Under the pieces are notes generated by a model that was not told the DNA's origin, made no database searches, and worked only from the letters and a program-made list of their open reading frames with translations. Positions 774 through 21,606 of a DNA stretch of 39,170 nucleotides are shown here, piece after piece (position 1 is the first letter of the stretch; each line of letters begins with the position of its first letter). Made by a program: the position numbers and the translations under genes. This stretch comes from Rhodothermales bacterium (GTDB taxonomy: Bacteria; Bacteroidota; Rhodothermia; Rhodothermales; Bin80). The stretch is from the NCBI GenBank assembly GCA_012271185.1, contig JAAXGV010000207.1, positions 1 through 39,170 on the forward strand. The letters are read 5' to 3'.

Positions 774-2888
774 TCAGGCAATGTTGCGCCGAAGATCGGC
801 AATCAGGGGGCTGGGCGTGTCGTAGCTCGATATGAGCAGCGTCTTGCGGGCCCGTGTACAGACGACATAGAGCAGCGAACGCTCCTTCCTCAGGAACTCC
901 GCACGTCCAGCGGCACCGGCTGCAGCCTTCATATGTTTGCGGGAAGGCAGGTGTTCGTCGGTCACGCTTGCAGCAATGACATGGTCAAACTCCAGTCCCT
1001 TAACCCGGTGCATCGTTCCAATGCGAATGCCTGGCTTGGCCAGGTTGTCAGGACGAGAGCTCTTGATGGAAAACGTTGGTACGGAACGCATCATCAGCGC
1101 ACCTTTGTATTGACTGACCAGGTCATTGGAGCGCGCCACAAGGCAGATGCGGTGCCACTCGTCGCCACAGCGCAGTTCGGTGATGTACTCCAGGATCCCA
1201 TCGACCTCTTCCTGGAAGGAATTGTAATGGTTGATGACAGGGTCCTCGCCATGCATCAGTGACGTGTAGCCTTTAACCGTGTCGCACGATCCATCGAGAT
1301 CGTCGTAGGGTACGCCTTCAAGAACACCTACTGCACATTCGCGCACTTCCTCGGGAGTGCGGTAGTTGACGCGCAGTCGCCGGCTGCGGCCCTGGATGTT
1401 TATACCGCAATGGCTCAGCACCAGGGGGCGGCCGAAGATACGCTGGTGCGCATCGCCGACAATCATCAGGTTGTTGCTGTCACCCCGCGGCGCGATGGCG
1501 CGAACGAGACGCATAGCTGCGGCAGGCAGATCCTGGGCCTCGTCAACAATCACGCTGCGATACCTGCACGGCTGCTCTTCCAGCCTCTTGGCCATCTCGT
1601 GCATAGTGTCTTCCGGCTCCCGGAGGCCGATGCTCAAAAGGTTTGAGCGATATGCAGAAAAGATCTGCCACAACTTCTGTCTGGACTTGCGGTGCAGCCC
1701 TTTTCCGCGACCTTTTCGCGATACACCCAGGTACTCAGATTCTGTTTCGATGCCGTGGGCCAGCACCACGGCGCTGAACTCCTCCTTGATGAAGTTCAGC
1801 GAATGGGAGAACTCAAAGTCCTGACTGTCAACAGCTTCCTGCCAGTATGTGTTTTTCTCAGCTTCTCTGTAGGCCATACGCCAGTGCAGATCCAGCCGCT
1901 TGCCCTCTCTGTTGACCCAGGCATCAATGTTGATGACTTCAATACTCCAAACGCTTCCGCACTGCACATCTTCTTAAGGTTTGCGCGGACATCCGCCACA
2001 AGGTTCTTGCTGAAAACCAGAAACAGGATTCTGTCCTCAGGCCCGTTAAACACCTCCGTTGCAAGGCGTTTAGCGCGATGCATGGCCACAACAGTCTTTC
2101 CAGTACCGGCTCCGCCAAGCACCCGCATGGGGCCGCGGGCATTCATGTTGACCAGGCTGCGCTGAGCAGGATGCAAGAAGATGCGCCATTCACCCAGTGG
2201 CGCATCTATCATCTCACGCAGTGACGCATCGTCGCGAATGATAACGAATGCAGGTTGGCCCTTTGGGTGCTTGAGAGCATCGCTGTAGTCGTCTCCAGCG
2301 ACCTGCCGGGCCATCACATCAATTTCGCGCACAAGACTGTCATAGTCTGCCCCATCGGCAAGCTCGCTTAGCACAAGTGCTGCGTCCTCGGGGAGATCGT
2401 CCATGTGATCCTCAAGGTCGGACTTTGTGGCAAACGTGCGAACAAGCGCTATCAGATCCTTTGGCACTCCGAGCCGGCAAAGCTGACGATCCCGCCAGGC
2501 AGAAAAAAGATCCTTATCAGCGGGCTTCGTGTCGGTTTCAGCACTGATATGCTGAGTTTCGTAAATCTGGATAACCTTGGTGTCCGGATGGATCGCCACC
2601 TTGTTCTGGCATGCCCACTGGTATGCAGCGTCATGGTTGTCTACCCGCAAACAGATGAGCGTGTTATCCTTTTTTTTCCTGCAGGACGATGGCGCGGTAC
2701 TTCCGGTCAATACGGATCGATCGCAGGTTATCGCTGCCGGCGTTCGTGATAGGTTCAAAATTGAACCCTCCTGAGGTAGGATTAAGGCGGTAACGCTTTA
2801 CGAACTTATTGACTTTATTCCGAATCTGCTGTGGCAAGCGATCTTTCATCGCCATAAACTCGGTCGTCATCGCCAGTGCAACATTCAT
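774..2888 (-). pseudogene. RelE/ParE-like N-terminal domain fused to UvrD/REP-type helicase, disrupted by two frameshifts
   Basis: Three overlapping ORFs form one protein. 2664..3002: MNVALAMTTEFMAMKDRLPQQIRNKVNKFVKRYRLNPTSGGFNFEPI...RSIRIDRKYRAIVLQEKK. 1796..2758: DNTLICLRVDNHDAAYQWA...VLGGAGTGKTVVAMHRAKRLA. 774..1967: IEVINIDAW...VIVDEAQD...RIGTMHRVKGLEFDHVI...LLYVVCTRARKTLLIS. The first and third ORFs share a frame; the middle one is shifted. Confidence 0.75.
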
Positions 2889-3086: not shown

Positions 3087-6000
3087 TTAGCATAGGGCGT
3101 ACGGCTCGCCTTCGCACCTTTCTTCCCGGCCGGTTGCGAGAGCGTCATGCTTCGGACAGGGTGTGCTGGGTTCCAGCCCATCGTACCGGTCCTGCTCCAT
3201 GCCTGTGGTGCAGAAGAAGCCACGCTGCGGCAAAAACTGAAACAGGTTCATTAGGCGTAGGAACCCGTTCCAGGCGGCTTTAAATCCTTTGCGCCTGGGC
3301 GCTCCGTCATCCAGGTGCACGCATATGCTCACAGCACTTGTATCATAAGCGCTGACTGCAGCCCTGCTGGTTCGCACCAGGATTGTTGCACTGTGGTCAC
3401 TGTCATCCGTGCGCTGGCCCACCAGCGTATCCTCGCCCCTGTCCAGACCAAACCACCGGGGTGCCAGGCCCGAAGCAGCCTCTGACCAGTCTTTTCGGGT
3501 CCAGTCCTGGACACACAATACTGCATGAGCGTAGGCCAGCACGGTCCATCTGGCACGGTGCGGCTCTTTCAGGAAGGCCATGAACAGGTCCATGCTGCCA
3601 GCGGTCCGCACGCTCTTCATGGTGCCGAGGTCGCCGCATGCGTCAGCCAGGTGGTTCAAGAAATGCTCAATCTTTGCTTCCTTGCCTGCATCCAGTGCGA
3701 TGTAGTCCTCGTAATGCGTACCACCGTCGTTTGCTGTCAGATCGTTCCAGGTCAATGACCATACATGGTACCGGCCCGATGCCAGTATGGCCATCCGCTT
3801 GGCGGTATCCTCTGCAAGCTGGCCGCAATGATATGCATAGCCATCAGTGAACACGGCTACTGGCAATGCCCCGCACTGCGAGGCCGGCCTGAAAACGAAG
3901 TCCGGGCGGGACCATTCTGCCAGGTTCTCTTTTGGTCCAAGCGAGACCTGGCATTCTATCTCCCACGTTTGATCGCCATGCGTTAGCCTGTATCCCTCCT
4001 TTCCGTTCCTGAAAACCCTTTCGAACGCGCCGTCGGCTCTCTGCTCCAGCTCCTCCACCAGCTTAACCTCACACTGGCTCTCCAGGAACGGGTTCAGGTC
4101 CACCTGGTCCAAGGACTGTATCCTGGCAAGGTCTGGGCCCTGTTCCAGGATCTTCTCCAGGGTTGCGCTGGCAACCTCCCGCGAAATGCGATCTCTGACC
4201 CAGCTGTTCCGGTAGGCGTACAGGCAGCGGTAGCACCCGTCTTTTGTTGCATCCTGCGCACATTCACACTGCTCAAGGCGCTTCTGCGCGATGCGGAGCA
4301 CCTCCAGAATCTTCTCAGGGCTACGGGCAAGCCCCTTCAGGTATCCGGTGCCCCCTGGCACTGAGTCGTAGATAAAAACGAAAACCTTCCGCCTGGAATC
4401 ATCAGCAAGGGGAGCGCTCTGGATCATGGTGCGCAGGTGGCTCACCCGGCCGCGGAAGTACTCTTTGAGTCCCATGTTGAGTGCTGCACAAAACGAGTCC
4501 GCTTCGCGGGATACCGGGCCGTCCGCAGCTGCGGGCAGCAGTATCCGGACAGCTTCCGAGGTGAACGCATGATACAGGAAGAGCTCGCTGCCGGCGTCAG
4601 GGCCTTTGCCGCGAAGGCAGCAGTCGTAGGCGTGCCTGATGGCACTGTCGCCGTGCATCCGGACCATGCCACATTTCGGGCAGCACGCGAAGCCACGCGT
4701 GTTCTTTTCCTCTCCGGCTATGACAACCGGTATGCAAGGATGCTCATGGCCGAAGTTGACAGTCCGCAGTGCAGCCTTCCGCACATACTCGAAGCCAAAA
4801 GGCACGATGGCTTTCCTGGATACGTAAGCAGGGCTGGCGTCACGACGGCTGAACTGCACGTGTGTGCGGACATGGTACTGCGTCCGCTCGCGCACCTCAG
4901 CGTCATCATATGAGCGACTGGCACGGTCGTTTGACACAGATGCGACGCGTAACATGCGCACCATAGCATGTTTGCGCCCCGTATCACGCCATGTGCTGCT
5001 TTCACACTCCGGGCATCGGGGCTGTGTGGCCGTAGCCACGCGTTCGAGATACATGCAGCTGTCGCAGAAGCGCCAGTCTTCTATGTCCCCGTCCTTAAGA
5101 GTGATCTGTGAAATTCTGACACTGCGGCCACCCGCGTAAAACCTGTTACCTGGCGCAAGCTCCCGGATGGCTGACGCGCCCAGGCGGGTGTATTCATCGG
5201 TTGACACATTTTTGGTGTCCCCTTCGCTGTACAGTATCGTAGACTGCAGTGTGACCAGGCTCTGGGGGAAGGCGTAGTTGGGCAGTATCCCTTCCTTGGT
5301 CAGGAAGTTGAATACCGGCATCTTGTTAATGGTGGCCTTTATAGAGCCAAGCATCCTCCGGTGGCGATGTAGCTCCCTTTCTTCCTGAGCGAAGTTCTGA
5401 TCTTTTGGGCGGGACTTCAGTTGCTCTATCTGCCGCCAGACTCGCCCGATATCTTGTGTCAGCTTTGTACGCTCGTCACGTTTGGTTGCAAACGCTTGCA
5501 GAACGGCAAACCTGAGTGTCGGGTCGCTGCTGGTGTTATCCAGGTTCAGGTAGCACTGCAGCTGCTCCCGACACTGTTTGTCGATGTGTTCTCCAAAGAG
5601 CCCGATGAACTGCTCGAACAGGCTTTCTGCATTCTCGTCAGCGTATGCAAGCCAGCTGTACGGAAACCGCATTTCGTCCTCCTTGTCCAGGTGGCCGAGC
5701 ATCAGGCGCAGGTTAGGGGGTACAGCCTTCTCGCTGACACCGCTGGCGATCCACGAGTCAAGCGTGAACGCAGCCAGCTGGCGCTTAAGCACGGCCGGCG
5801 CGCGCAGGAATGTGCCGGGCACGTGGACATCGCCGGCGATCATGTCTTCCGGTTCTGCAAAGTAGTACAGATCATGCGGCTGTGCAGCGGCGACGGTAAG
5901 CCCGAACGCGTTGCCGTCGCGTCGTCCTGCGCGTCCGATACGCTGCACGTAGTTGGCCTGAGTCGGTGGCACGCTGCAGAGGATAACCGATGATAGGTCT

Positions 6001-8999
6001 CCGATATCAACACCCAGCTCCAGCGTGGGAGTGCAGGAGATGATGTTCGGGTCCCAGGGCAGTGAATCCTGGCGCATGAAGTCTTTCTCCAGCTGCTCCC
6101 GCTCCTTTCTCGCCAATAGCCCCGTATGCTCTTTCGCAACAATCCGCCGCACGTCCGCAGACCGGTATCGTGCACGGTAGTAATCCAGCTGACCCGTATC
6201 GGCGGCCTCGAAGGCTCCGAAGCAGGCGTGCCGTACACAGGGCATACCGACCCACAGCGCGTGCTCATGCTGCGGTACGGTTACCTGGTAGCTGCACTGG
6301 TTGCACCTGCAGCTGTTCACGCTGGTAGTAATCTGGAGCGCATCAGGCCGCAGGCCCCATACGGGGTGCTTTGTGCTGTCCTTTCTGGCCAAGACCTGCA
6401 CCCGCGCGGCCTCGCCAAGCACATAACGGTACAGCTGGTCCTGGATCCAGGGAATCTCGTCGTCAGCAAACAGACTCCTCCTGGCCCACCCGCCAAGCCA
6501 GGTTCTGCGCTGTCCGCTGCCAATGGTCATGAACGTGTCGCTCCGGCCTGACGTGATGAAGGCCGGGCGGGGACTGCGAGGCCCCATGCGGGGCATATGT
6601 TTGATGTGCAGGTCGCTCATCACGCCGTACTGCCTGCCCATCCTTTTGATGTAGTTGCCCAGTACCTCGTGCAGGATGCCTCCACTGACCCGCAGCCGGT
6701 AAATCAGGCCGATCAGGAACTGGTGCAACCTGCGGGCTGTCAGGTTGCGAAGCCCCCCAAGCTCGTTGCGAAGCCGCTCAAGTAAGGGGTCACACGCCAT
6801 CAGCTCCGCACGGGCAAAGGCTGTGGCTGACAGCGTGTTTTCGAGGCTTCGCCCGAGGCGGGCGTTGAGGCCAAAAGCCTGATACACTTCCCATTCGAGC
6901 CGTTTTTCGACGTACGCAACAAGGTCGGAACCTTTGGGCAGCTCGCCGTGCTGCGTCAGATACGCATAGTCTGCCAGCCAGCAGAGGTTGGGCGCGATGA
7001 AGGTGCCGACAAAGTCTATGTCACCGTACGCATCGCGTGCTGCCTGCACATAGCGCGCTGCCAGCACATCGAGTGCTGCGTTTTGCTCATCCTGCAGGAT
7101 ATGCTGCAGCAGTGATGTTCGGACGTTGAATGAAAACGTGCGTGCCTGAAAATAGCCGGCGCGATGCGACGCATCCTGCACTGAGTCAGAGAATGCCAGC
7201 ACCTTCTTGTCATCGTTGTGTCGGGACCCGAAGAGCTGCCCGATCGCTACGGATGTCAGGCTGGCTGCCTGTGCGCCGACAATGCTGACCGTGTTCACAG
7301 CGCCACAGGAGGCGCATGTTATCCGGGACCATGATTTGCCATCCTTCTGGTTTATCAGGTCCGGGACGCTGACGGTAAGGTGGTCCGTACAGTCCGCACA
7401 CGCCTGGGCACTGAGTGGATGGAGGATGCGGCACTTCAGGCAGAGCCGGTACTGGGGGGATTCGATGCGGCTGTCCGGGTACAGGAGGCGAAACTCGGCA
7501 CTGCGACCAAAAAAGGCCCGATAGATTGCGGCGGGGCTGGCTTCAATCACCGGATCGTTCAGCCGCTGTCGCGCCGCCCACCCGGCTGCGCCGCAGTTGC
7601 GGCAGACCGCCAGCGGCAGATGGTTTATTTCCTGCCTGTCCTCCTCCGAATCCTCGAGATCATCGTACCACACCAGGCGTGCATCTTCACGTGTGGATAC
7701 CAGCATCCGTCGGAGCTCGCGTATCCACAGCTGGATGTGCACGTTCAGCAGCGGACGGCTGGGATCCTGGGGGTGACGCGCATAGCTGACCAGGGCCAGC
7801 AGACTCTCCAGCAGCAGGCCCGGGGCCTCAGCCTCCGGTGCAAGCCTGCGCGCAACTGCACGCCATGGCACCGTCGCCGCCTCAACAATCTTGATAAGGT
7901 TGTGAAAGGCCACATGCTGCCTCAGGGACTGCCCCAGCCGGGATCGCCAGCTGCCGCTGACAACCTCATCGGCTGTGATTTCCGTGCCAAACCATGCGTC
8001 ATGCTGCGCTGCAACATATTCCGGCAGTGTGCCGTGGCGGGCTGGCGCGAGGGGCTCCAGGCTTGCCGGAAACGCAACATGTCTGATAAGCTCTTCCCCG
8101 AGAAAATCCCTGGCCGTCAGGCGGTCTTCTGATATGATGGCGTTCTTATCGAACGCTTCGCCAAAGATCTTCTTTGCGTAGTCTTGAAGCGCGTCGGTAT
8201 GCTGTGGCGCCAGTGTGGCTGAGGTTCCGACGGGGCATGCGTCTGGCGCGCGGAGGCGATGCTTCAGGCGTCTCAGCAAGCAGGTCAGATCTGTTTCCTG
8301 AGCGCCGTCGAAGGTGTGCAGCTCGTCCACAACGATAAAACGCAGCGCGCCGGGGCGGTTGTCCTTCCATATCCTGGCATCGCGCGGCCGAACCAGAAGG
8401 TAATCCAGCATCGAGTAGTTGGTGAGCAGGATATCTGGCGGTTTCTGCTGCATGGCCTGCCGCCGGGTGATGATGTTGCCTGCGGTCATACGCCCCTGCG
8501 GCACCGCATCCTGGCCGCCTATGTACAGCCCTGCTGTGACCCGGCCGCGGAGGTCCTTATTGCCATGGACTATGCCCGCGATGCGCAGCGCCTGGTCCAT
8601 AGCTAGCGCATTCATAGGGTATATCAGTATCGCCTTGATGCCTGGCTCACCGGCATGTTGACGGCAGTAGTCCAGGACCGGGTACAGGAACGCTTCGGTC
8701 TTGCCGGAGCCGGTCCCGGTGGCTATGATGGTCGGATCCGGTCTCTTAAGGCGCGCAAAGGCCTTCTCCTGGTGCACGTACGCTGCAAAGGGCAGGGAAA
8801 GCCCGGGAAAGTATGCTGCGCCCTGCGTGCCCACCTTGAAGGGCAGCTGGAACGACACGTAGGCTCCCTTGAACGCTTCTCCTCGCGCCACAAAGTCCGA
8901 TATGGTTCTGGCAAACCGTGACGTGGAGATCCGGTACTGCGTCTGCAGAAAGTCTTCTACGGCCTGCCTGACCTGGCTGCTGAGTACGGAAGGGATCAT
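3087..8999 (-). CDS. Large DEAD/DEAH-box helicase with DUF1998-type C-terminal region and Vsr-like nuclease motif (DISARM-like)
   Basis: 1970 aa. Helicase motifs TIIATGTGSGKTEAFLYPVLDY, FIVVDELHTFDGAQ, PVGTSATL, LGVDIGDLSSVI and YVQRIGRAGRRDGNAFGLTV; DUF1998-like DSVPGGTGYL...CECAQDATKDGCYRCLYAYRN; several Cys pairs; C-terminal RPDFVF...LPVAVFTDGYAYH. Start codon overlaps the methylase stop (ATGA). Confidence 0.85.
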   Translation of the reverse strand: MIPSVLSSQVRQAVEDFLQTQYRISTSRFARTISDFVARGEAFKGAYVSFQLPFKVGTQGAAYFPGLSLPFAAYVHQEKAFARLKRPDPTIIATGTGSGKTEAFLYPVLDYCRQHAGEPGIKAILIYPMNALAMDQALRIAGIVHGNKDLRGRVTAGLYIGGQDAVPQGRMTAGNIITRRQAMQQKPPDILLTNYSMLDYLLVRPRDARIWKDNRPGALRFIVVDELHTFDGAQETDLTCLLRRLKHRLRAPDACPVGTSATLAPQHTDALQDYAKKIFGEAFDKNAIISEDRLTARDFLGEELIRHVAFPASLEPLAPARHGTLPEYVAAQHDAWFGTEITADEVVSGSWRSRLGQSLRQHVAFHNLIKIVEAATVPWRAVARRLAPEAEAPGLLLESLLALVSYARHPQDPSRPLLNVHIQLWIRELRRMLVSTREDARLVWYDDLEDSEEDRQEINHLPLAVCRNCGAAGWAARQRLNDPVIEASPAAIYRAFFGRSAEFRLLYPDSRIESPQYRLCLKCRILHPLSAQACADCTDHLTVSVPDLINQKDGKSWSRITCASCGAVNTVSIVGAQAASLTSVAIGQLFGSRHNDDKKVLAFSDSVQDASHRAGYFQARTFSFNVRTSLLQHILQDEQNAALDVLAARYVQAARDAYGDIDFVGTFIAPNLCWLADYAYLTQHGELPKGSDLVAYVEKRLEWEVYQAFGLNARLGRSLENTLSATAFARAELMACDPLLERLRNELGGLRNLTARRLHQFLIGLIYRLRVSGGILHEVLGNYIKRMGRQYGVMSDLHIKHMPRMGPRSPRPAFITSGRSDTFMTIGSGQRRTWLGGWARRSLFADDEIPWIQDQLYRYVLGEAARVQVLARKDSTKHPVWGLRPDALQITTSVNSCRCNQCSYQVTVPQHEHALWVGMPCVRHACFGAFEAADTGQLDYYRARYRSADVRRIVAKEHTGLLARKEREQLEKDFMRQDSLPWDPNIISCTPTLELGVDIGDLSSVILCSVPPTQANYVQRIGRAGRRDGNAFGLTVAAAQPHDLYYFAEPEDMIAGDVHVPGTFLRAPAVLKRQLAAFTLDSWIASGVSEKAVPPNLRLMLGHLDKEDEMRFPYSWLAYADENAESLFEQFIGLFGEHIDKQCREQLQCYLNLDNTSSDPTLRFAVLQAFATKRDERTKLTQDIGRVWRQIEQLKSRPKDQNFAQEERELHRHRRMLGSIKATINKMPVFNFLTKEGILPNYAFPQSLVTLQSTILYSEGDTKNVSTDEYTRLGASAIRELAPGNRFYAGGRSVRISQITLKDGDIEDWRFCDSCMYLERVATATQPRCPECESSTWRDTGRKHAMVRMLRVASVSNDRASRSYDDAEVRERTQYHVRTHVQFSRRDASPAYVSRKAIVPFGFEYVRKAALRTVNFGHEHPCIPVVIAGEEKNTRGFACCPKCGMVRMHGDSAIRHAYDCCLRGKGPDAGSELFLYHAFTSEAVRILLPAAADGPVSREADSFCAALNMGLKEYFRGRVSHLRTMIQSAPLADDSRRKVFVFIYDSVPGGTGYLKGLARSPEKILEVLRIAQKRLEQCECAQDATKDGCYRCLYAYRNSWVRDRISREVASATLEKILEQGPDLARIQSLDQVDLNPFLESQCEVKLVEELEQRADGAFERVFRNGKEGYRLTHGDQTWEIECQVSLGPKENLAEWSRPDFVFRPASQCGALPVAVFTDGYAYHCGQLAEDTAKRMAILASGRYHVWSLTWNDLTANDGGTHYEDYIALDAGKEAKIEHFLNHLADACGDLGTMKSVRTAGSMDLFMAFLKEPHRARWTVLAYAHAVLCVQDWTRKDWSEAASGLAPRWFGLDRGEDTLVGQRTDDSDHSATILVRTSRAAVSAYDTSAVSICVHLDDGAPRRKGFKAAWNGFLRLMNLFQFLPQRGFFCTTGMEQDRYDGLEPSTPCPKHDALATGREERCEGEPYALC

Positions 9000-11900
9000 C
9001 CGAGGCGCTCAAAGTAGTTCCATGCCACCTTGTAGTCTTCTTCGCGATCGCACCGGTCGAAGGGTGCATGGAGCTCAACGGTTCGCTCCCTGGGTCCGCC
9101 TGGCAGGGTATCGTCCATGAATGTGCAGGTCACAGTGCCGTGCTTCATATCCCGTACATCCTCCCAGCCCAGGGCGATATTGGTGCTTTCGCCTTTGATG
9201 CCGTAGCCTGTGTCGCCGCGCTTCTTTCTTCGAGGCAGGTAGCCCATCCCTTTCTTGCTTGAAAACACGCATCGCCCCCCCGCGTCGTACCAGGTATCAT
9301 GCTCGTACATGTACAGCACTGGAAACTGTATCCGGTATACGGCGCACAGCTCATCGAGTGTGAGCCCCAGCGCCTGTGCGCAGAGCACATCCAGTTCAAC
9401 CAGGGCCTGGCGGCGGGCGTAGTCGGTTCTGAGGGCGCTCTCACGCTGCCAGGGGACGTTGAACAGGCTGAAGTAGCCGTCGTGCAGACGGGGGTCTGAT
9501 TTGGTCCAAGCCGCTATGGAAGCGCTGGTAACGGATACGTTCCACAGGTCTCGGTAGTCTGCTGTCACGCAGACGAGCCCGAACACTCGGGCGGCAGCCG
9601 CAGCGCTGAACGGCATCAGCGGCAGAAGCGAGGTTCGCCCTGCGTGAAGATTATGACTCCCGGCTGTTTTGACATAGCCGTCCATGATGATCGTCAGCCA
9701 TCCCTGCAGTGCACGCAAGAGGTTCTGCACCTTCCGGAAAGCGATTGAAGTTACCGCATGTACATGAGCGGCTCCCGGAGGCATCACCGCTGCGATGAGC
9801 GTTCGCTCGTTGTCCAAGCTTAACAGTCTTCTACAGGCTATGCGGTAATAGCCGCTGTGTGGTTTTTCCCAAGGAGTCGAGGGGATCTGCCGGGCGTATT
9901 CCGATGGGTCGCAGGCGATCGTGTAGTTGGTGCGGGGGCGGTACGCATCGGGCAGACGCACAAGGTCCAGGCGGGTATAGTCCCCGTGTGATTTGCAGCC
10001 GCTGTTCGGGGTGCTGTAGAGCGGGTTACCCACATGAAAGTGGGGACCGGACAGGATCCATTCCTGCGCCGAGCCGGCAAATCGGGTGCTTCTCTGGATG
10101 ACGCCGGCCTTCTGTGCGTTTGTCTCATTCCACATTGCGCTGATGCTGAACTGTCCGCTCAGGCTGCGCAGCCGATCTGCTGTGAGCCGCCGCAAAACCG
10201 CATGGATGGGTGTGGAGTGAATCTCAGGCAGCTGCGCCTGCAGTGAGCGCGTGCCTGCCGGGTCGAACAGCCGGGCATACAGCGAGAGCTCTTCCGGTCC
10301 TGTCCGGATGATGCGTTCACGGTGCCCTTCCAGGACCCACTTGTTGTCCTTTGTCTTGATGCCCGGCACCGGCCCGTAGCCCGCATGACGAAAGGATGCG
10401 TCGATCGTGCCGGGATGCAGCAGATGTGACATGCAGGTGAAGGCAGGGTTCGCTTGGGGCTGCGCATACACGTTTATACTGAATCTGACTCCGTGGCCAA
10501 TCTCAGGAAAAAGGCGCTTTTCATTAGTAAACCGGAAGTGGCGGCGCAGCCGGGGATACAGCGCTTCTCTCAGCGGTCCGCCCTTGGCGTCATCATACAC
10601 GCCCGTGGGATGCAGTAGCCCAATGGCGCCTGTGGAGAGCGACAGGGCTGCGGCCAGAAAGGACTTGTACAGGTTGGCCTTCATGCCCTGCAACAGCGGA
10701 TAGTTGGCATTCTGAAAGGCGGCTTCCGCCTTTGCGGCGCCGAACGCTTTCAGGTATCTGCTGCGGTTGGTCGCCTGCTGAAGCCACGCTGCACGCAGCT
10801 TTGCCGTCTGACTTGCGCTGAACCGCTTGGTCGCGAAGCGTGGCTCCGTATCGGCCAGGATGTTCTGCTCAACGAAGGAGGCCTTCTTCCACGGCGGATT
10901 CCCTATCACGATATCAAACCCTCCCCGCACTGCGAACTGGTCGGCATACTCCAGCTGCCAGTGATGAAACCGGAATTGCTTGGACAGCTTCGCTACCAGG
11001 CCCAGCCGGGGACGCTGTTCCTTCAGGGTATCCAGGTCCACGTAACCGATTGCGTCGCGCTCCACAGGTATACCATCCACGACGCTGGTCTGCACTACCT
11101 CGTCCCGTCCGGCCAGTATCCGGCTGAGATCGCTCAGGTACTCATCGCGTGCAGGCAGCAGCTCAGTCTTTTCGATGGGCCAGTATCACAGTGCACACCA
11201 GTAGTCCATAACCAGCTTCAGCCGCTGGTAGGCGCTGGCATGGCCGCCCGGGCTCAGGACCTCGCGCAGATGCCGCTCCTTCATGCGGGTATCCGTGCGT
11301 CGCGTATATGCACGATCCTTGTCCGGATAGATGGCAAACGCGTCGGTGGTGCGATCGTCGAGACGTGTCAAGTCGCGCACATGCTGCGCCCACAGCCTGT
11401 CAATGATGCCCGAAAAGTGCTCCAGGAGCACGCATTCGCGTGCGCTGATCCGGGCAGTGAAGTGCTTCTTCCACCGGTCAGCCTGTTTGAGCTCCGCCGC
11501 GGCGATCTGCTTGACGACCTTGCCGCGGTAGTCCATCATACCGGGGTCGCCTACCAGAAAATGGTATATCGTCCCGTCTTTGGCGAACTCCACGTCTTCC
11601 GGAGGCTGTTTCCACCATCTGCCCTGCATCAGCTGATCCTCGGAATACACGCGGCGCCACGCTCCCACGAGTGAGTTGCCGCACTTGAGCTGGTTGCCGA
11701 ACCAGGGCACAAAGCCGTCCGGAACCAGCGTGTTAAGCCACAGAGATACCCCGCCCAGCTCCACCGCGATAGGGTTCAGGTCAACGCCATACGCGTTGTT
11801 GTCCGCCAGATACATCTTCACGCGCTGCAGCTCTTGGGCATACCGCTCAGCGGACAGGGATTCGCCCCGCTCGCGGGTCTTGCGCCGCAGATATGCCTCC

Positions 11901-13564
11901 GCGAGCTGCGAAACCGCTTCATTCAGGAATGCGGCTGAGCCCATCGCAGGCTCGCAGACGGTGAGGTCCAGAATCTCGTCTGCGGACAGGCCGTGCAGCA
12001 CCTCCTCCAGGGCATGCTGTACCACACACTGGGTGAGAGACTCCGGTGTATAGTAAGAGGCGGACTCCTCGCGTGCGCGACTCGTCAGGCGGTATATGAA
12101 CGAGCCCTTCCTGTGGCAGACCAGCCGGCCGCCGCTGTCATACACGCGCTCCTCCTCATCGTAATGCGCTTCCAGCGCCGCCGCGTTCACGAAGTATGTG
12201 GGCGAGAGCATATCCGGGTACGTGCCGCGCTTTTTGACCTCGTACAGGTCTTCTTGTGCAATGAAGCCCTGATAGCTCAGCAGGGCCTCGTAGACCTCGC
12301 CCAGGTGGTTGACCCCGAGCTGCGCATACGAGATGCGGCCCTTCCGGCCCGGATAGCCCTCATGGCCAAGGGACATCATCCGGATGATCCGCTGCCATAC
12401 CCGGTTGCGGATGCGGATCGAGTTCAAGAGCGGTGTCTCCTTCGGGTCAAACAGGCTGCATTGCAGGGGTGCTATGCTGAATGTGTCCTCGCTTCCCTCC
12501 ATGGTACGCTGCCGGCCCTCCTCCTGCCTGCCGGCAAACACCAGCTTGAAAAGCCTCAGCAGCGATTCGTGCAGGAAGTACCCTTCCGAGCTGTCACCCT
12601 CCTCCAGGGATACCATCTCCAGGTCACGCAGCAGCTCCAGGCTGTATCCCTCGCGGTACAGTATGGCGTTCATGGGGAGGTACCCGAGCTCCTGGCGCGA
12701 CTCCACCGTGAAAAGGAACAGCATCCGGTACATGTAGCGCAGGCACTCAAACGACAGTGCCTTCTCATCCACGCTGGTGGCTTGGCGTCGCGCCGTGCGA
12801 CGATAATGCAGGAACTCATTGCCCAGGAGCTCCACGGCTTCCCGGAGCGCATACTTGAGGCTGCCGGACACGCCTTGCGCATGCGCTTTGGACCGCTGAT
12901 CGATACGGTCAAGCTCAGAGGTCAGGCCACTGGCCGGGCAGAGGCTGTCCCGGCTCAGCAGCATCGCCACAAGCTGGAAGGTGCTGATGGGTGTGCGACG
13001 GTTGAAGAGCTCCGCCCAGTCAACACGGAGCGCCCGGTGCCCGGACCACTTGGTCCGGTCCAGCAGCACAAAGACGTGCAGCGAAACGATAAGCAGCCAG
13101 CGCGGCGGCGCGTCACAGAAGAAGGCCTCCCCAACCAGCCGCTCCAGCGTGGCGCCCTCTGCTGCAAGCTGCATGATGTCGTCCCCGGTATGGGCGCCGT
13201 CCAGTGCCTCCACTATCCACAGGTAGGGTCGACTTTCCCGCTCTACCTGCCCCAGCCGTGTGAGTGTGCCGCTGTTCAGGTGCGCGGTCGAGATCTCCGG
13301 ATTGTAGCCCAGAGCACCCAGAAGAGGCCACACATGGCGCCGCTGGATCTGCAGCCGCTCCGGTGCGCGGGCCCGCCGGAAATCCTCGCGGTGCTCCAGG
13401 AACTGGCGAGCCATACGCTGGAGCATGACCCAGCGGGGGGTCTCCCCATTCACCGGGCGCCTGGCTTTGACCCACTGCTTCAGGTCCTTCTCCAGGATCA
13501 CCTGCAGATAGTGGTCCGAGTAGAACTCGTTCTCATTCCTGATGCCGGTCAGGTCCAAGGCCAT
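8996..13564 (-). pseudogene. N6-adenine DNA methylase (Eco57I/DrmMI-like), interrupted by one in-frame TGA at 11186-11188
   Basis: ORFs 11186..13564 (YYTPESLTQCVVQHAL, VCEPAMGSAAFLNEA, GVDLNPIAVELGGVSLWL) and 8996..11095 (FDIVIGNPPWKK) are in the same frame (offset 2469 nt = 823 codons). The sequence between them, ...LVMDYWCAL-TGA-YWPIEKTELLPARDEYLSDLSRILAGRDEV-, is open except for that TGA. Confidence 0.85.
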
Positions 13565-13568
13565 GCCG

Positions 13569-16394
13569 CTACCCTCCAGCCAGCACGGCGACTACCTGCA
13601 TGTAGGGGGTTTCCTCTATGTGCATGGTGTCATGGATCCATTGCCGGTATGTGTTAAACTTCTCTTCTACTCTGCGCAGCGCATGCACCCTCCGGCCTGT
13701 TGTGAGCTGATCCTCGGCCATGAAGCGCTCTCCGACATGCGTCTCGTGGCGAGCCTTAAGGTGCTTGAGGTCCGCGAGGTGCGACTGTAGCTTCGGATCG
13801 AGCTCGGATACAAACCTGTCGCGCTCTGCGCGTACAAATTCCGCAGCCTGTTCGACAGCGTCCGGGAGCATGCGGCGTGCAACCTCAATGGCCTGCTGTT
13901 CACAGCCTGCGTTTGCCAGCCTGCTCGACTGCAGGGCCGCAAATTCCGGTGATCCTTGAAGGCGCTCAACGTGGAAGACCCCGCCTGTGGCCCGGACCAC
14001 GCACCACTCCTGGAACACGGTGCGCCCCTTGCGATTCGGATAGGAGATCGAGATGATGTAAGAGATGGCCTGTGCATTGGCACTCGGCAGCGCGATGACC
14101 GGCGCTTCCAGGCGCCTGAACGATGCGCGCACCTTGTCGGTCGCCCAGTCCATCAGCGGGTGCAGCGGCCACAGATAGTGCATTTGCGGCCACGTTTCTT
14201 CGGTTGCACGGGCGGCCCTGATGCCTGCCATCATGACCTTGGGCTGCGCAGTTAAATCAAAAATGTTGTGCTTCGGCCGGGCTTCGCGCGGCAGCGTATC
14301 TGTCACGTTCTGCAGGGCGTTGGAAGCCGTGAGCTGAATGCGCTGTTCGTGGTCCCACATACGCAGCTCAAAGTCCAGCGAGTCGCCTTTGATGCGTGTT
14401 AGGGCGGACTTCAGGTAGTCATAATCCGATGCATACAGCGACGGCATGGAGCGTGTGCTGTGGACTGAAGGCTGGGTGCCTGTCCCGAGCAGCGCAGCAA
14501 CCGGATCGAAAGGGTCCTCTTCCTGCTCGCAGGTGAACAGCCCTCCGGTGGAAGTAGTGCCCTCAATGACATCGCGAACCCTCAGCTCCTCCTTTTGCGC
14601 ATCGTACAGCCCCATCAGGATGGCGGGGTCTCCGATGTTCTTGTGTGCCTGCTGCTCCTTCTCGACGAGAATCTTGAGGATGCGCTGGTCATCCCTGAAC
14701 TTCTTTGCCGAGCAGCTGGTCACCAGGTACACAATCTGCGGCTTGCGCTCCTGCCCATACCGGTCTATGCGCCCATTGCGCTGCTGCAGCGTCATGAGCG
14801 ACCACGGGATATCAAAGTGGATAAGCCTGCGACAGTGGTAGTGCAGGTTCAGTCCTTCTGAGCCCACGTCCGATGAGAGCAGCAGCCGCACCGGCGACCG
14901 GTCGCTGCCGAATGCTTCCACGATCTCCTGCTGATCCACATCCTTCATCGTCCCTTTGAGCACGCGGACAGTGTTAGGCCCAAGTTGCAGGTCAGCCTTC
15001 AGGCGCTCATGCAAGAAGTCAAGCGTCGCGATACGTTCCGTGAAGATGACGACCCGATCATGCGGATCCCGAATGTCCCAGCTCCAGTGCCTGAACACCT
15101 TCAGGAGGCGCTGATACTTGGAAAAGGTGTCGGGCCGGACGTGCCCGAGCCGGTCGGCGATGCGCTGGAGAAGGCCCGTGGCTTTGGGCCCTTTGCCTTG
15201 CTTCCGGAGCTTTGTGATGCGGGCCTGTATGGTTTCCAGGCAGGCCGCCGGTGACGACAGCACGGCTTTTTCCAGCACGGTTCGCAGCAGCCATCCGTTG
15301 CCCACCCTGGCAGAGAGCTGCTCGTTTGTGGTGTCTGCCAGCGCCGAAAAGACGGCTTCTTCGGCCTTCGAAGCCTCAGTCGGCAGGATATGGGTGTCGC
15401 GCTCCTTAAAGGCCGCCGCGACTTCGTGCCGGATATCTTTCTTGAAGCGGCGCACAAACAGGTTCTTACCTTTCAGGTCTTCTCTGGTGTACTGATCCGG
15501 GTTGGCTATGGCTGTCGGGTCCAGCATGCTCATGAGGTTGGCGAAGCTGCGTGCCCGTCCGTCGTGCGGTGTCGCACTCAGCATGATGAGTGCATCGGAG
15601 CGGTCTGCCAGGATCTCCGCCAGCTGATTTCGCAGCGACCGGGTGCCCCGGTTGGCCACGTTCTGGGCTTCATCGATCACGATGATATCCCAGTAGGCCT
15701 GCTCAACGAAGACGCGGTAGTCTGCTGCTAACTTGAGCGTGTCGATCGAGATGATCGACTTATCAAAGTGATTAAAGGGGTTGTGTCCTACCGGAATCTG
15801 GTTACGCACGCGCTGTATACCTGCAGAGTCCAGCCGTACCAGCGGGATCGCAAAGCGGGTCCACAGCTCTTTCTGAAACTGCATGAGCATGCTCTTGAGC
15901 GTCACCACGAGGATGCGCCGTCCGCGTCCGCGCCGCATCAGCTCCGCAATGAGGATGCCCGCTTCCAGCGTCTTGCCCAGTCCGGTGCCGTCTGCAATCA
16001 GTATCCTGGGCCGGGGCTGCTGCAGCGCCAGCACCGCAGGCAGACGCTGATAGGGAACGTTATCCATAGCGCCGCGATGTCCCAGATACAGGTGTTCGTC
16101 GGTAGGGGGCGTGGCGCGCAGCTGACTTTCTATGTGAAGCTTGGCTGCCAGATAGCCTGGCGATTCATCGTGAACCAGCCTCACCTTCTTCGGATCGACT
16201 TCGGCGAACTTCTCTAGCTCTGTCAGGAACTTCCAGTCGCAATCCCGGACCAGCGGGCTTACGCCGGTGACTGACAGTATGTAATGGCCATCAAAGGTGC
16301 GATCGGCACGGCGCACGATCCACTCTTCGCCTCGGATTTCCAGCCGTGCCCCCGGTGCAGGCGGTCGCTCTATTGCAGAACTCATACGTAGCAT
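13569..16394 (-). CDS. SNF2-family helicase, DrmD-like
   Basis: 941 aa. Motifs RILIADGTGLGKTLEAGILIAELMRRG, WDIIVIDEAQNVANRG, LIMLSATPHDGRA, LLSSDVGSEGLNLHYHCRRLIHFDIPW and QQRNGRIDRYGQ. 4-bp gap to the methylase start. Confidence 0.8.
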   Translation of the reverse strand: MLRMSSAIERPPAPGARLEIRGEEWIVRRADRTFDGHYILSVTGVSPLVRDCDWKFLTELEKFAEVDPKKVRLVHDESPGYLAAKLHIESQLRATPPTDEHLYLGHRGAMDNVPYQRLPAVLALQQPRPRILIADGTGLGKTLEAGILIAELMRRGRGRRILVVTLKSMLMQFQKELWTRFAIPLVRLDSAGIQRVRNQIPVGHNPFNHFDKSIISIDTLKLAADYRVFVEQAYWDIIVIDEAQNVANRGTRSLRNQLAEILADRSDALIMLSATPHDGRARSFANLMSMLDPTAIANPDQYTREDLKGKNLFVRRFKKDIRHEVAAAFKERDTHILPTEASKAEEAVFSALADTTNEQLSARVGNGWLLRTVLEKAVLSSPAACLETIQARITKLRKQGKGPKATGLLQRIADRLGHVRPDTFSKYQRLLKVFRHWSWDIRDPHDRVVIFTERIATLDFLHERLKADLQLGPNTVRVLKGTMKDVDQQEIVEAFGSDRSPVRLLLSSDVGSEGLNLHYHCRRLIHFDIPWSLMTLQQRNGRIDRYGQERKPQIVYLVTSCSAKKFRDDQRILKILVEKEQQAHKNIGDPAILMGLYDAQKEELRVRDVIEGTTSTGGLFTCEQEEDPFDPVAALLGTGTQPSVHSTRSMPSLYASDYDYLKSALTRIKGDSLDFELRMWDHEQRIQLTASNALQNVTDTLPREARPKHNIFDLTAQPKVMMAGIRAARATEETWPQMHYLWPLHPLMDWATDKVRASFRRLEAPVIALPSANAQAISYIISISYPNRKGRTVFQEWCVVRATGGVFHVERLQGSPEFAALQSSRLANAGCEQQAIEVARRMLPDAVEQAAEFVRAERDRFVSELDPKLQSHLADLKHLKARHETHVGERFMAEDQLTTGRRVHALRRVEEKFNTYRQWIHDTMHIEETPYMQVVAVLAGG

Positions 16395-16503: not shown

Positions 16504-16849
16504 ACCGGTTCACCTGCGTACAGCCGCCGGCCGCACGGCAAGCCTTCTCGGGTCCACACTTGGGAGATCAAGCTCCCTGATCATTTCCTCTTGCCGAGCA
16601 CGTTGTTCTCCGGCAGCGCGTGCGACCAGGCTTACCTCTTAGCCGATCCCGGCAAGTCTGTGGTACTGTTACACAGCAACCTTCGCGTCTCTCGAAGCCA
16701 TGCCCGCGATTGCGGAGCGGAAGCATTTTTCGCGCCAGTCTGCCGCTGCTCCCACCTGAAGGTGCCTGAGTCCAAGTGAGGCACCAGTCGCAAAACAAGA
16801 CGATGGCCTTGCCTGCCCTGTCAAGCAAGGCATAGCCTGCGTTTCCGGT

Positions 16850-17437
16850 GATCGGTCAAGCTGGCGTATCCGGTTTCTGTGGAAGAAACCAGGGGGTCAT
16901 GCGTCCTTCTATCCGCGCAAGGCGTTCAGACACGTCCGCGATGCGTCTGTCAAGGCGTTCTGATACGTCAGTGATGCGCCTGTTCAGAGTGGTATACAGT
17001 CCTCCAATGGCCAACAAAATGGTAACCGTAGCGCCTACGGCAGAAAGTATCGTGGTGATCATGGGGCTGCATAGTGAGTGTGGTGATAGAACGCCGTCAT
17101 ACGAGATTCGTTCAGCAGGGGGCACGCTGTTCGGCATAGCCATGCGCTATGGCGAATCCCTGGCTACGTGGTGCGGGTAGCTCACAGGCCAGCCGATACT
17201 GTTCAAGAACGCGTTGACAATGCTGGCGCGTCTGATTCTCTGTGGTCACATGCGGCGGCGCTTGGTCGACATGGGCTTGGTCCAAGTGCCCACGCTGCAG
17301 TTCCCTATCTTGTGAGCGTACTTTTTGGGCTGGTCTGGTGGCAGGTTGTCATCGATTTTCGTGCCTGCCTTCTTTGCTTCGATGATGACGATGGCCTCGT
17401 CTGCCTTGTCAAGCAGGGCGTAGTTTGCGTTCCCGGT
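16850..17437. repeat. Tandem repeat unit 1 (588 bp): TM/coiled-coil cassette plus decayed 5' HsdR_N gene fragment
   Basis: Begins GATCGGTCAAGCTGGCGTATCCGG; the same sequence recurs at 17438 and 18029. High identity by eye across the unit. Confidence 0.85.
16856..17062 (-). CDS. Small membrane protein with coiled coil, copy 1
   Basis: 68 aa from MITTILSAVGATVTILLAIGGLYTTLNRRITDVSERLDRRIADVSERLARIEGRMTPWFLPQKPDTPA. Open frame conserved in all three repeat units. Confidence 0.55.
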   Translation of the reverse strand: MITTILSAVGATVTILLAIGGLYTTLNRRITDVSERLDRRIADVSERLARIEGRMTPWFLPQKPDTPA

Positions 17438-18028
17438 GATCGGTCAAGCTGGCGTATCCGGTTTCTGTGGAAGAAACCAGGGGGTCATGCGTCCTTCTAT
17501 CCGCGCAAGGCGTTCTAACACGTCTGATATGCGTCTGTCAAGGCGTTCTGATACGTCCGAGATGCGCCTGTCAAGACCCTCGATGCGCCTGTTAAGCGTG
17601 GCATATAGTCTTCCAATGGCCAACAAAATGGTAACCGTAGCGCCTACGGCAGAAAGTATCGTGGTAATCATGGGGCTGCATAGTGAGTGTGATGATAGAA
17701 CGCCGTCATACGAGATTCGTTCAGCAGGGGCACGCTGTTCGGCATAGCCATGCGCTATGGCGAATCCCTGGCTACGCCACAGGCCAGCCGATACTGTTCA
17801 AGAATGCATTGACAAGGCAGGCACGCGCCTGGCTCTCTGTGGTCACATACGACAGCGCTTGGTCGGCATGGGCTTGGTCCAAGTGCCCACGTTGCAGTTC
17901 CCTATCTTGTGAACGTACTTTTTGAGCTGGTCTGGTGGCAAGTTGCCATCGACCTTCGTGTCTGTTTTTTTCACCGTGACGATGACCTCGTCTGCCTTGT
18001 CAAGCAGGGCGTAGTTTGCGTTCCCGGT
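17438..18028. repeat. Tandem repeat unit 2 (591 bp)
   Basis: Same organisation as unit 1. Lacks about 13 nt (TGGTGCGGGTAGC region) after GGCTACG; has a 21-nt longer coiled-coil segment than unit 1. Confidence 0.85.
17444..17671 (-). CDS. Small membrane protein with coiled coil, copy 2
   Basis: 75 aa, MITTILSAVGATVTILLAIGRLYATLNRRIEGLDRRISDVSERLDRRISDVLERLARIEGRMTPWFLPQKPDTPA. Confidence 0.55.
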   Translation of the reverse strand: MITTILSAVGATVTILLAIGRLYATLNRRIEGLDRRISDVSERLDRRISDVLERLARIEGRMTPWFLPQKPDTPA

Positions 18029-18568
18029 GATCGGTCAAGCTGGCGTATCCGGCTTCTGTGGTGGAAACCAGGGGGTCATGCGCCCTTCTATCCGCGCAAG
18101 GCGTTCAGACACGTCTGAGATGCGTCTGTTAAGGTGTTCTGACACGTCCGAGATGCGCCTGTCAAGGCCCTCGATGCGCCTGTTCAGCGTGGCATACAGT
18201 CTTCCAATGGCCAACAAAATGGTAACCGTAGCACCTACGGCAGAAAGTATCGTAGTGATCATAGGGCTGCGTAGTGCGTGTGATGATAGAACGCCGTCAT
18301 ACGAGATTCGTTCAGCAGGAGGTACGTTGTCCGGCGTAGCCATGCGCTATGGTGAATCCCTGGCCACTCGGTGCGGGTAGCTCACGGGCCAGCCGATACT
18401 GCTCAAGAACGCGTTGACAAGGGCTGGCGCGCGTCAGGCTCTCTGTGGTCACATACGGCAGCGCTTGGTCTGGGAAGCTTCCAGCTCTCGCCGCAGGTTC
18501 TCCTTTATCATTACTGATTTCCGAATTTCTGGCACCTTCAAAGGACGGGCAGCGTGGTCATCATGCTG
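18029..18568. repeat. Tandem repeat unit 3, running into the HsdR_N gene 5' end and its upstream sequence
   Basis: Begins GATCGGTCAAGC. After the cassette it continues through CTTCCAGCTCTCGCCGCAGGTTCTCC to AAAGGACGGGCAGCGTGGTCATCATGCTG, matching 19887-19980 around the intact gene start. Confidence 0.8.
18035..18262 (-). CDS. Small membrane protein with coiled coil, copy 3
   Basis: 75 aa from the conserved MITT start: MITTILSAVGATVTILLAIGRLYATLNRRIEGLDRRISDVSEHLNRRISDVSERLARIEGRMTPWFPPQKPDTPA. Confidence 0.55.
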   Translation of the reverse strand: MITTILSAVGATVTILLAIGRLYATLNRRIEGLDRRISDVSEHLNRRISDVSERLARIEGRMTPWFPPQKPDTPA

Positions 18569-18749
18569 TCAGGTTCGCTCAAGAGACAACAGCGCCAGGA
18601 TTGAATCATTTCACAGCAGAATGCTGCTCCGACCCGCTGGCTGCCAGCAGCGGCACAGGAAATACTGAATCAATCCACGGGAGTCTTGGCGTGGCCACCT
18701 CTGTGATATGTGCAGTCGCTCTTGAGGTGGCAACCGAGTGCTGTCACAA

Positions 18750-19922
18750 TCAGTCTTTTTTCCGTATCCAACTGGGCAGCCATACCTCAAAGTCTGTGCC
18801 GGGCTGTGGCACCAGGCCTTCTTGGTTGCTAGCTAAGCTTGCAAGCCACCTCTCTTTGGCAGCATTACCTTTATTTGTATCAACGTATGCTTTTCCGTCA
18901 AAAATGGCTCGGTACCCCTTAAACTTGCCGTCCGGAGGCTGCGGGCCGAGCGATATGCCAGGACCTCCTTTGAACGAATCAAGGCCGCCACCCCATTCAA
19001 TCAGCCACTCAGCCACCCTTGCCTGAACGTCGGCGCCGCTGCTTTCCACCTTCCATTCGTCCCAGTCACCGGAGGCCTTATTCCGGGTTCTCCAAGCACG
19101 CTTTTGCCCCTTCTGAGTCAGTATGGTACCATCGGCCTGCCTAAAGGTCGTGGGAGGATTCCCAATTGGTCCGGGCTTATTAGTGCCGTTTGGCGGAGGA
19201 ATTATGATAACCGGTCCATTTCCATTTGGTTCAGTCGCCGAATGTAGCCTGATCCAGGCGCGCTTCACAATGATCAGATCGCGCGCACTGGCTTTTGTTT
19301 TTGACAGACCGAGCTCCTTCCACACAAGCTGTGCAAGTTTGTCTGACGGCTCCTTCCTTGCAGATTCCCACCAGTGCTGCATTTTTGAGGTGACTTCATG
19401 CGTCCTCGCATCGTACAGCAGTCGCGAAGGGTCCGGATCGGAGAACTGGCTCCTGACAGAAGCCAGCCAGCCCAGCACAGAAGGGCGGAGCCAGCCCTTG
19501 CTCTGCACATCATATGTGACAAACGGCGCTTCACCCAGCGTGTTTGTAGGGTCCAGGCAAAACCAATACCACTCCAGACCATTGGTCCAGGCGCCCACGT
19601 TGCAGGTCCCTATCTTGTGAACGTACTTTTTGAGCTGATCTGGTGGCAGGCTGTCATCGATCTTCGCGCCCGCCTTCTTTGCCTCGATAATGACGATGAC
19701 CCTGCCTGCCTTGTCAAGCAGGGCGTAGTCTGCGTTTCCGGAAATCGGCACGGGAAACTCCTGGGCTACGCGGTGCGGGTGGGCCACAGGCCAGCCGACC
19801 CTGTTCAAGAACGGATCAATGAGGCTGGTACGCGTCAGACTTTCTGTAGTCACATACCGCAGCACCTGGCCGACATGGGCTGGGAAGCTTTCCAGCTCTC
19901 GCCGCAGGTTCTCCTTTTCCAT
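18750..19922 (-). CDS. HsdR_N-like (type I restriction R protein N-terminal domain) stand-alone protein
   Basis: 390 aa from MEKENLRRELESFPAHVGQVLRYVTTESLTRTSLIDPFLNRVGWPV...FPVPISGNADYALLDKAGRVIVIIEAKKAGAKIDD...QLKKYVHKIGTCNVGAWTNGLEWYWFCLDP; D(x)n-IEAK nuclease-type signature. No helicase motifs follow. Confidence 0.7.
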   Translation of the reverse strand: MEKENLRRELESFPAHVGQVLRYVTTESLTRTSLIDPFLNRVGWPVAHPHRVAQEFPVPISGNADYALLDKAGRVIVIIEAKKAGAKIDDSLPPDQLKKYVHKIGTCNVGAWTNGLEWYWFCLDPTNTLGEAPFVTYDVQSKGWLRPSVLGWLASVRSQFSDPDPSRLLYDARTHEVTSKMQHWWESARKEPSDKLAQLVWKELGLSKTKASARDLIIVKRAWIRLHSATEPNGNGPVIIIPPPNGTNKPGPIGNPPTTFRQADGTILTQKGQKRAWRTRNKASGDWDEWKVESSGADVQARVAEWLIEWGGGLDSFKGGPGISLGPQPPDGKFKGYRAIFDGKAYVDTNKGNAAKERWLASLASNQEGLVPQPGTDFEVWLPSWIRKKD

Positions 19923-20202: not shown

Positions 20203-21606
20203 ATGCCAGCGATCGGATCAGAGGAAACACCCCTGCGCGTAGCCATCATCGGGGCAGGACCCGCAGGGTTCTACGCGGCAGGACATCTCTTCAAGCAGCG
20301 ATCATGCTGCGTGACAGTGGACATGTACGACAAGCTGCCCACACCGTTCGGGCTCGTCCGCTGCGGTGTGGCACCGGACCACCAGAAGATCAAAAACGTG
20401 ACCCGCGTCTATACCAGGACCGCAGCCCATACAGGGTTCAGGTTCTTCGGTAACGTGGAATACGGCCGGCACCTCTCGCTGGATCAGCTGAAAGCACACT
20501 ATCACCAGATCTACTTCTCCACCGGCGCACAGGTGGACCGGCGCCTGAACATTCCGGGCGAAGACCTGGGACGCAGCTACTCCGCGACAGACTTCGTAGC
20601 ATGGTACAACGGCCACCCCGAATACCGCCACCTGGAGTTTGACCTCTCCCGCCCGTGTGTCGCCGTCGTCGGCGTAGGTAACGTGGCCGTAGATGTTTGT
20701 CGGGTCCTCTGCCGCACCATAGAGGAGCTGGCGGCCACAGACATTGCCGACTACGCCCTGGAAGCGCTCCGCGAAAGCAGGGTACGCGAGGTGCACATGC
20801 TGGGCCGCCGCGGACCAGCACAGGCGGCGTTCACCAATCCCGAGGCCAAGGAGCTGGGCGTGCTCCCGGGTGCCGATATCCATGTGCCACCCGGTGAAGC
20901 GGCACTGGATGCATGCACGACAGCACACCTTGGAGAAAAACCCGACCGCCTTACGCAGAAAAAGATCGGGATGATCCGGGACTTTTCCATGCGGCAGCGT
21001 ACGGGCAAGCCAAGGCTGCTGACGATACGCTTTCTTGTGTCACCCGTAAAGCTCCACGACGACGGTACAGGCCACGTGGGAGGGGTGCAGCTTGTCAGGA
21101 ATGAGCTGTACGCCGTCGGCGACGGCCGCCTCAGGCCCCGCGCAACGGACACGCTGGAAGAGCTGCCGGCGGAGGTGGTCTTTCGATCCGTAGGGTATCG
21201 AGGCGTACCCCTCTCAGGTCTACCCTTTAATGACAGCTGGGGCGTGGTGCACAGCAGCAAGGGGCGCGTGATGGATCCGGAGATCCAGGCTTCCGTGCCG
21301 GGCGTCTACGTGGGTGGCTGGATCAAGCGCGGCCCCACGGGGGTCATCGGAACCAACAAGGCGGATGCCCTGGAGAGCGTCAAAGCCATGATGGAGGACG
21401 TACAGAACGGGTGCTGCCTGAATCCTGCAGCGCCCAGTGTAGAAGCCGCAGAAAGGATGGTCCGCGCATGTCAGCCTGACTACGTGTCGTGGGAGGACTG
21501 GGAGCGCATAGATGCGCTGGAGACCGCCCGCGGCAAGCCGGCAGGGCGGCCCAGAGTCAAGTTTGTTGACACAAGCGAGGTCCTGGCGGCACTGGGGCGT
21601 GCCTAA
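20203..21606 (+). CDS. fprA: FprA/adrenodoxin reductase-like ferredoxin-NADP reductase
   Basis: 467 aa. LRVAIIGAGPAGFYAAGHLF, DKLPTPFGLVRCGVAPDHQKIKNV, VAVVGVGNVAVDVCRVL, VHMLGRRGPAQAAFTNPEAKEL and GVYVGGWIKRGPTGVIGTNKADA are family hallmarks. Confidence 0.9.
   Translation: MPAIGSEETPLRVAIIGAGPAGFYAAGHLFKQRSCCVTVDMYDKLPTPFGLVRCGVAPDHQKIKNVTRVYTRTAAHTGFRFFGNVEYGRHLSLDQLKAHYHQIYFSTGAQVDRRLNIPGEDLGRSYSATDFVAWYNGHPEYRHLEFDLSRPCVAVVGVGNVAVDVCRVLCRTIEELAATDIADYALEALRESRVREVHMLGRRGPAQAAFTNPEAKELGVLPGADIHVPPGEAALDACTTAHLGEKPDRLTQKKIGMIRDFSMRQRTGKPRLLTIRFLVSPVKLHDDGTGHVGGVQLVRNELYAVGDGRLRPRATDTLEELPAEVVFRSVGYRGVPLSGLPFNDSWGVVHSSKGRVMDPEIQASVPGVYVGGWIKRGPTGVIGTNKADALESVKAMMEDVQNGCCLNPAAPSVEAAERMVRACQPDYVSWEDWERIDALETARGKPAGRPRVKFVDTSEVLAALGRA

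Follow-up and report, generated by a model that had tools for sequence, protein, structure and literature searches.

Organization of the repeat array

The window, that is, the whole stretch of 39,170 nucleotides analysed here, makes up the whole of contig C22, which belongs to a draft genome of 2.70 Mb. On its minus strand lies an intact gene (18750..19922; ATG at 19922, stop at 18750) that codes for a stand-alone HsdR_N-type (PD-(D/E)XK-like) protein of 390 aa. Residues 50-125 matched the Pfam family HSDR_N_2 (PF13588, type I restriction R protein N terminus) with 26.5 bits, above the cut-off of 25, and the gene is therefore a member of this family. It resembles the type I R protein in this domain, as do the gene pieces described below, but differs from a full HsdR in being a separate 390-aa gene, whose sole Pfam matches were to HSDR_N families and in which no helicase domain was found. 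A genome of the same genus carries a homologue with 36% identity.

Beside this gene, from here on called the parent, a tandem array is found. Self-comparison of the window gave 300-nt direct repeats at 16798, 17386 and 17977, with a spacing of 588 and 591, and parent-matching restriction-gene pieces at 17277, 17874 and 19582. Copies of an insert were located at 16850, 17438 and 18029, with 89-100% identity to the query and E-values from 1e-131 to 1e-176, far above chance. Both the array with its pitch of 588 and 591 and the intact parent-like gene next to it, as put forward in the original prediction, are borne out by this dot-plot-type check and by the positions of the insert copies. Read on the minus strand, each unit is made of an N-terminal piece of the HsdR_N-like gene, an insert of about 310-330 bp with a small ORF, and a C-terminal HsdR_N piece.

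Unit 1 retains a parent-like start and upstream region in its N-terminal piece (18362..18643), which is 79% identical to the parent over 18362-18572 and shows weak in-register homology on to about 18643 (18643/20063). This indicates that the gene hosting the array was a tandem duplicate of the parent that took in the upstream region as well. The insert of unit 1 (18035..18361), which alignment showed to be absent from the parent, is followed by a C-terminal piece (17874..18034) with 83% identity to the parent. Unit 2 comprises an N-terminal piece with a 13-bp deletion (17776..17877; 78% to the parent), the insert (17444..17775), identified by the insert copy search and by alignment, and a C-terminal piece (17277..17443; 87%). 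In unit 3, an N-terminal piece (17162..17280; 79%) and an insert 89% identical to that of unit 2 (16856..17161) precede a truncated C-terminal piece (16799..16855; 86%), and the array ends at 16799, where the unit breaks off. Alignment to the uninterrupted parent puts the EFP codons on one side of the insert and the PISGNA codons on the other. The unit junction reads GGACCA before the join and AGCCCATG after it, so that mid-gene sequence is joined to the beginning of the gene; this is an illegitimate join with little or no microhomology. The three units differ from each other by 6-12%, which argues against a duplication introduced by the assembly.

The restriction fragments had been described as decayed. 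This is true of the N-terminal pieces, which contain frameshifts and stops in every unit, with unit-specific indels of 1, 2 and 13 nt. In units 1 and 2 it does not apply to the C-terminal pieces, which are open in the same frame as the small ORF right after its TGA and stop at a TGA shortly past the unit junction; the C-terminal piece of unit 3 is truncated.

The small ORF is under purifying selection

Starting from an inner ATG (18262, 17671 and 17062), the small ORF consists of 75, 75 and 68 codons plus stop in units 1 to 3 (18035..18262, 17444..17671 and 16856..17062, all on the minus strand). These limits derive from the comparison of the units (units 1 and 3), from the ORF list (unit 2) and from the substitution test (all three units). 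The copy in unit 3 has a 21-nt in-frame deletion in the coil region, the sole indel among the three copies, which show no frameshifts. The ORF is thus open in all three units, as expected from the earlier analysis, provided that it is counted from the inner ATG. The longer forms assumed initially (102 and 95 aa) find no support, since in unit 2 a 1-nt deletion lies ahead of the ATG within the insert and the purifying signal is slight in that stretch.

The substitutions found in the three copies, just 23 changes in an ORF of 225 nt, include 15 synonymous ones as compared to 6.6 expected from random placement. When the same base changes were placed at random, at least 15 synonymous changes were obtained about once in 10,000 (P about 1e-4). 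Pairwise pN/pS values were 0.14, 0.28 and 0.26 (Fisher p 3e-5 to 0.014), whereas the C-terminal restriction pieces compared between units gave a dN/dS of about 0.5, on few changes. The small ORF is under purifying selection and, with more synonymous changes than expected and copies free of frameshifts, belongs among selected protein-coding genes. The suggestion that the small ORF, and not the restriction debris, is the target of selection is supported both by this comparison of synonymous and nonsynonymous changes (15/23 synonymous; pN/pS 0.14-0.28) and by the frame-breaking indels of the N-terminal pieces.

These data bear on the view that the array is neutral debris, namely a tandem-duplicated pseudogene with no selected product, whose frames are open by chance. 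Short young sequences often remain open, and in fact the probability that 23 random changes create no stop is 0.45. However, the synonymous excess (P about 1e-4), the recurrence of this signal in independent family duplicates and the conservation of the protein across genera speak against this view, which we consider very unlikely.

A plus-strand antisense frame is also open in all three units (16848-17180, 17436-17747 and 18027-18380; 110, 103 and 117 aa), and shows a weaker synonymous excess (P 0.015). It might be supposed that this frame of 103-117 aa, and not the minus-strand ORF, encodes the selected product. Its third codon positions coincide with those of the small ORF, so the antisense signal is taken as an inherited shadow; moreover, the minus-frame architecture (TM helix, coil and RLARIEG end) is common to many relatives. 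An antisense product is hence scarcely credible.

The small protein belongs to an unnamed family

The product of the small ORF is predicted from its hydropathy to be a single-pass membrane protein: an N-terminal hydrophobic helix (best 19-aa window about 2.1-2.2; 2.16) is followed by a polar coil, whose coding region holds 33-nt tandem repeats, and by the end RLARIEGRMTPW. Upstream of the ORF, unit 1 contains GCGTTCTATCATCACAC (18278..18294, minus strand), which a motif search also located in the other units at 17687-17703 and, with one mismatch, at 17078-17094. A paralogue on contig C195 of the same genome has the same ends, including RLARIEGRM, a different coil and unrelated flanks; its upstream block is conserved and GCGTTCTATCATCACAC is identical. 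This 17-mer was discarded as the mark of a wider regulon, being present in family copies only, plus one unrelated site with two mismatches. A structured RNA in the conserved upstream block was also rejected (no Rfam match; folding not above that of shuffled sequences, z 0.74 and 0.31).

Outside the array, a single diverged copy is detectable at the DNA level in the genome (84% over 110 nt). An alignment of four sequences (the three units and the C195 paralogue) found relatives in the same order, with a best E-value of 3.8e-7, and a wider alignment recovered 8 family ORFs at 6 places in the genome itself; one alignment (A2) already included some of the sequences that it later retrieved. The same architecture was observed in g1, g7 and g21 genomes, with up to 15 matches per genome (g7 and g21 relatives). 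Four genomes with an Acidobacteria or Acidobacteriota label gave weaker matches. Between distant members, coiled-coil matches may owe part of their score to composition. Many family coils are made of 21- and 33-nt repeats, and their lengths differ by 7 or 11 residues. The small protein is a member of an unnamed, lineage-expanded family present in some Rhodothermales MAGs, with a TM helix, a variable coil and a conserved RLxRIEG end. In genome G016, two loci have coils of near-identical 33- or 54-nt repeats with 96-97% match (L191, 2658-2827; L192, 2342-2614), which suggests recent repeat expansion.

No profile in Pfam, NCBIfam or PHROGs matched over the curated cut-off (the best PHROGs match for the window ORF had E 0.011), no close relative of the window ORF was confirmed in the genome-contig collection, and literature searches found nothing on the small-protein family. 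One TM segment together with a coiled coil is an arrangement also known from small single-pass membrane proteins such as the LapA-domain or XhlA/holin-like ones, to which Pfam and PHROGs gave weak matches. The small protein differs from these in matching no family over cut-off, in its RLxRIEG end and in a coil that varies by 7 or 11 residues.

Local duplication recurs in relatives

Local copying is a property of the family and not a curiosity of one genome. Three tandem units with 82-86% identity, the first two at a pitch of about 1.3 kb, occur in G465:C45. A 344-bp tandem pair (87%) is found in G465:C26 and another tandem pair (72%) in G011:C124, while G465:C32 and G030:C35, from two species, contain inverted pairs of about 510 bp adjoining a DUF4268 gene. 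In all these local duplicates the small ORFs have pN/pS values of 0.26-0.45 (p 0.006 to 1.6e-7), and one g21 branch of the family includes copies with values of 0.10-0.24. The three TM/coil-ORF units of G465:C45 (locus L178, 1267-7014) lie beside a pair formed by an AAA_15 ATPase and an HNH gene, resembling Septu.

It is conceivable, although we advance it tentatively, that this undescribed, lineage-expanded Rhodothermales family of small coiled-coil proteins with a single membrane pass acts as a generator of dosage or variants, changing coil length by 21- and 33-nt units and being repeatedly duplicated in place with whatever flanks it.

Order of events and proposed origin

The insertion points are common to all three units, and so is a 1-nt deletion beside the insertion, which breaks the host frame. 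Interruption and loss of the frame consequently preceded amplification. Compared with the parent, the N-terminal pieces diverge by 24%, and the C-terminal ones by 13-15% in units 1 and 2. Between units it is 10-12% in the N-terminal pieces, 10% in the C-terminal pieces and 6-8% inside the small ORF.

The reading that we regard as quite probable is that of an insertion followed by tandem amplification of a selected small membrane-protein gene, with restriction debris as passenger. In this reading, an additional HsdR_N-type gene copy next to the first was interrupted at about codon 67 by the small gene with its own upstream region, which broke the host reading frame. A segment of about 590 bp across the insertion was then amplified in tandem via the illegitimate junction, giving three units, and the remainder of the host copy was lost. 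The nuclease pieces are passengers, mostly decaying, and the small ORF is the selected element. Its product may cross the membrane once, with a coiled coil that is probably cytoplasmic and with the RLARIEGRM end. Most likely it would form a membrane-anchored oligomer, and extra copies might provide dosage or variants.

Such an array resembles the tandem partial gene duplications and amplifications of bacteria in its head-to-tail units, illegitimate junction, divergence between units and decaying passenger. It differs from them in that the selected gene is the inserted small ORF and not the gene that flanks it in pieces. Selection retains a small membrane-protein gene while the restriction pieces amplified with it decay, and the array also points to an unnamed multi-copy small-protein family that gene callers easily miss. 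Considering that local duplication recurs in relatives, a copy-number benefit becomes accessible to testing.

That the insert sits within a gene, and that a related copy with the conserved upstream block occurs on another contig with unrelated flanks, might also be explained if the cassette were a small mobile element inserting into genes, with the small ORF as cargo. However, comparison with the uninterrupted parent revealed neither terminal inverted repeats nor a target duplication at the borders, the genome contains elsewhere a single diverged copy at the DNA level, and matches were found neither to Rfam nor in plasmids, phages and viral contigs. A mobile cassette is accordingly unlikely. 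An insertion element or MITE in the strict sense was rejected, as neither of these border features was seen, inverted repeats of at least 40 nt are absent nearby and there are no near-identical dispersed copies. A phage or plasmid origin was likewise dismissed after the searches of plasmids, phages and viral contigs gave no match. As to an integron gene cassette, whose marks would be an attC site and a nearby integrase, the analysis covered an Rfam scan, which found nothing.

Genomic surroundings

Judging from the ferredoxin-NADP-reductase-like gene at 20203, the closest named relative is the Rhodothermales MAG chromosome OX638318.1 (83% identity, same genus). Rightwards of 20203, collinearity with this chromosome extends to about 32,600 (58-87% amino-acid identity), with one further homologous gene to 33,809; on the left side, comparison with the neighbouring 17 kb of OX638318.1 gave no similarity of note. 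Synteny therefore begins abruptly at 20203, and positions 1-20202 are a lineage-specific island. This left part of the window contains a DrmD-like helicase, an IIG-type methylase, a DruE-like helicase and UvrD/GajB-like pieces; the array sits inside a lineage-specific defence island.

Since the array lies between the HsdR_N-type gene and the DrmD-like helicase with the IIG-type methylase, and some family members elsewhere are near AAA_15/HNH or DUF4268 genes, it could be thought that the array contributes to the function of the neighbouring restriction/DISARM-like defence island, with the small protein as membrane partner of the nuclease. Against this, AAA_15, HSDR_N or N6_Mtase genes occurred within 6 kb at about 5 of the 27 family loci, as compared to about 4 expected from gene density, in a rough hand count that took AAA_15 genes among the matches listed. 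As defence genes are not clearly enriched around family members in other places, the location of the array may be due to chance, and a role as defence partner appears decidedly improbable.

The genes at 3087-8999 and 13569-16394 (minus strand), in which a DruE-like helicase with an MrfA Zn-binding domain lies near the DrmD-like helicase and the IIG-type methylase, form a mixed DISARM/Druantia-like set. The IIG/DrmMI-like methylase (8996-13564, minus strand) is split into 792 and 699 aa by one in-frame TGA (11186-11188), which may be a point nonsense change, a sequencing error or a sign of decay. Similarly, the UvrD/GajB-like helicase (774-2758, minus strand) is contained in two overlapping frames, 774-1967 and 1796-2758, which may reflect either decay of the island or a sequence error.
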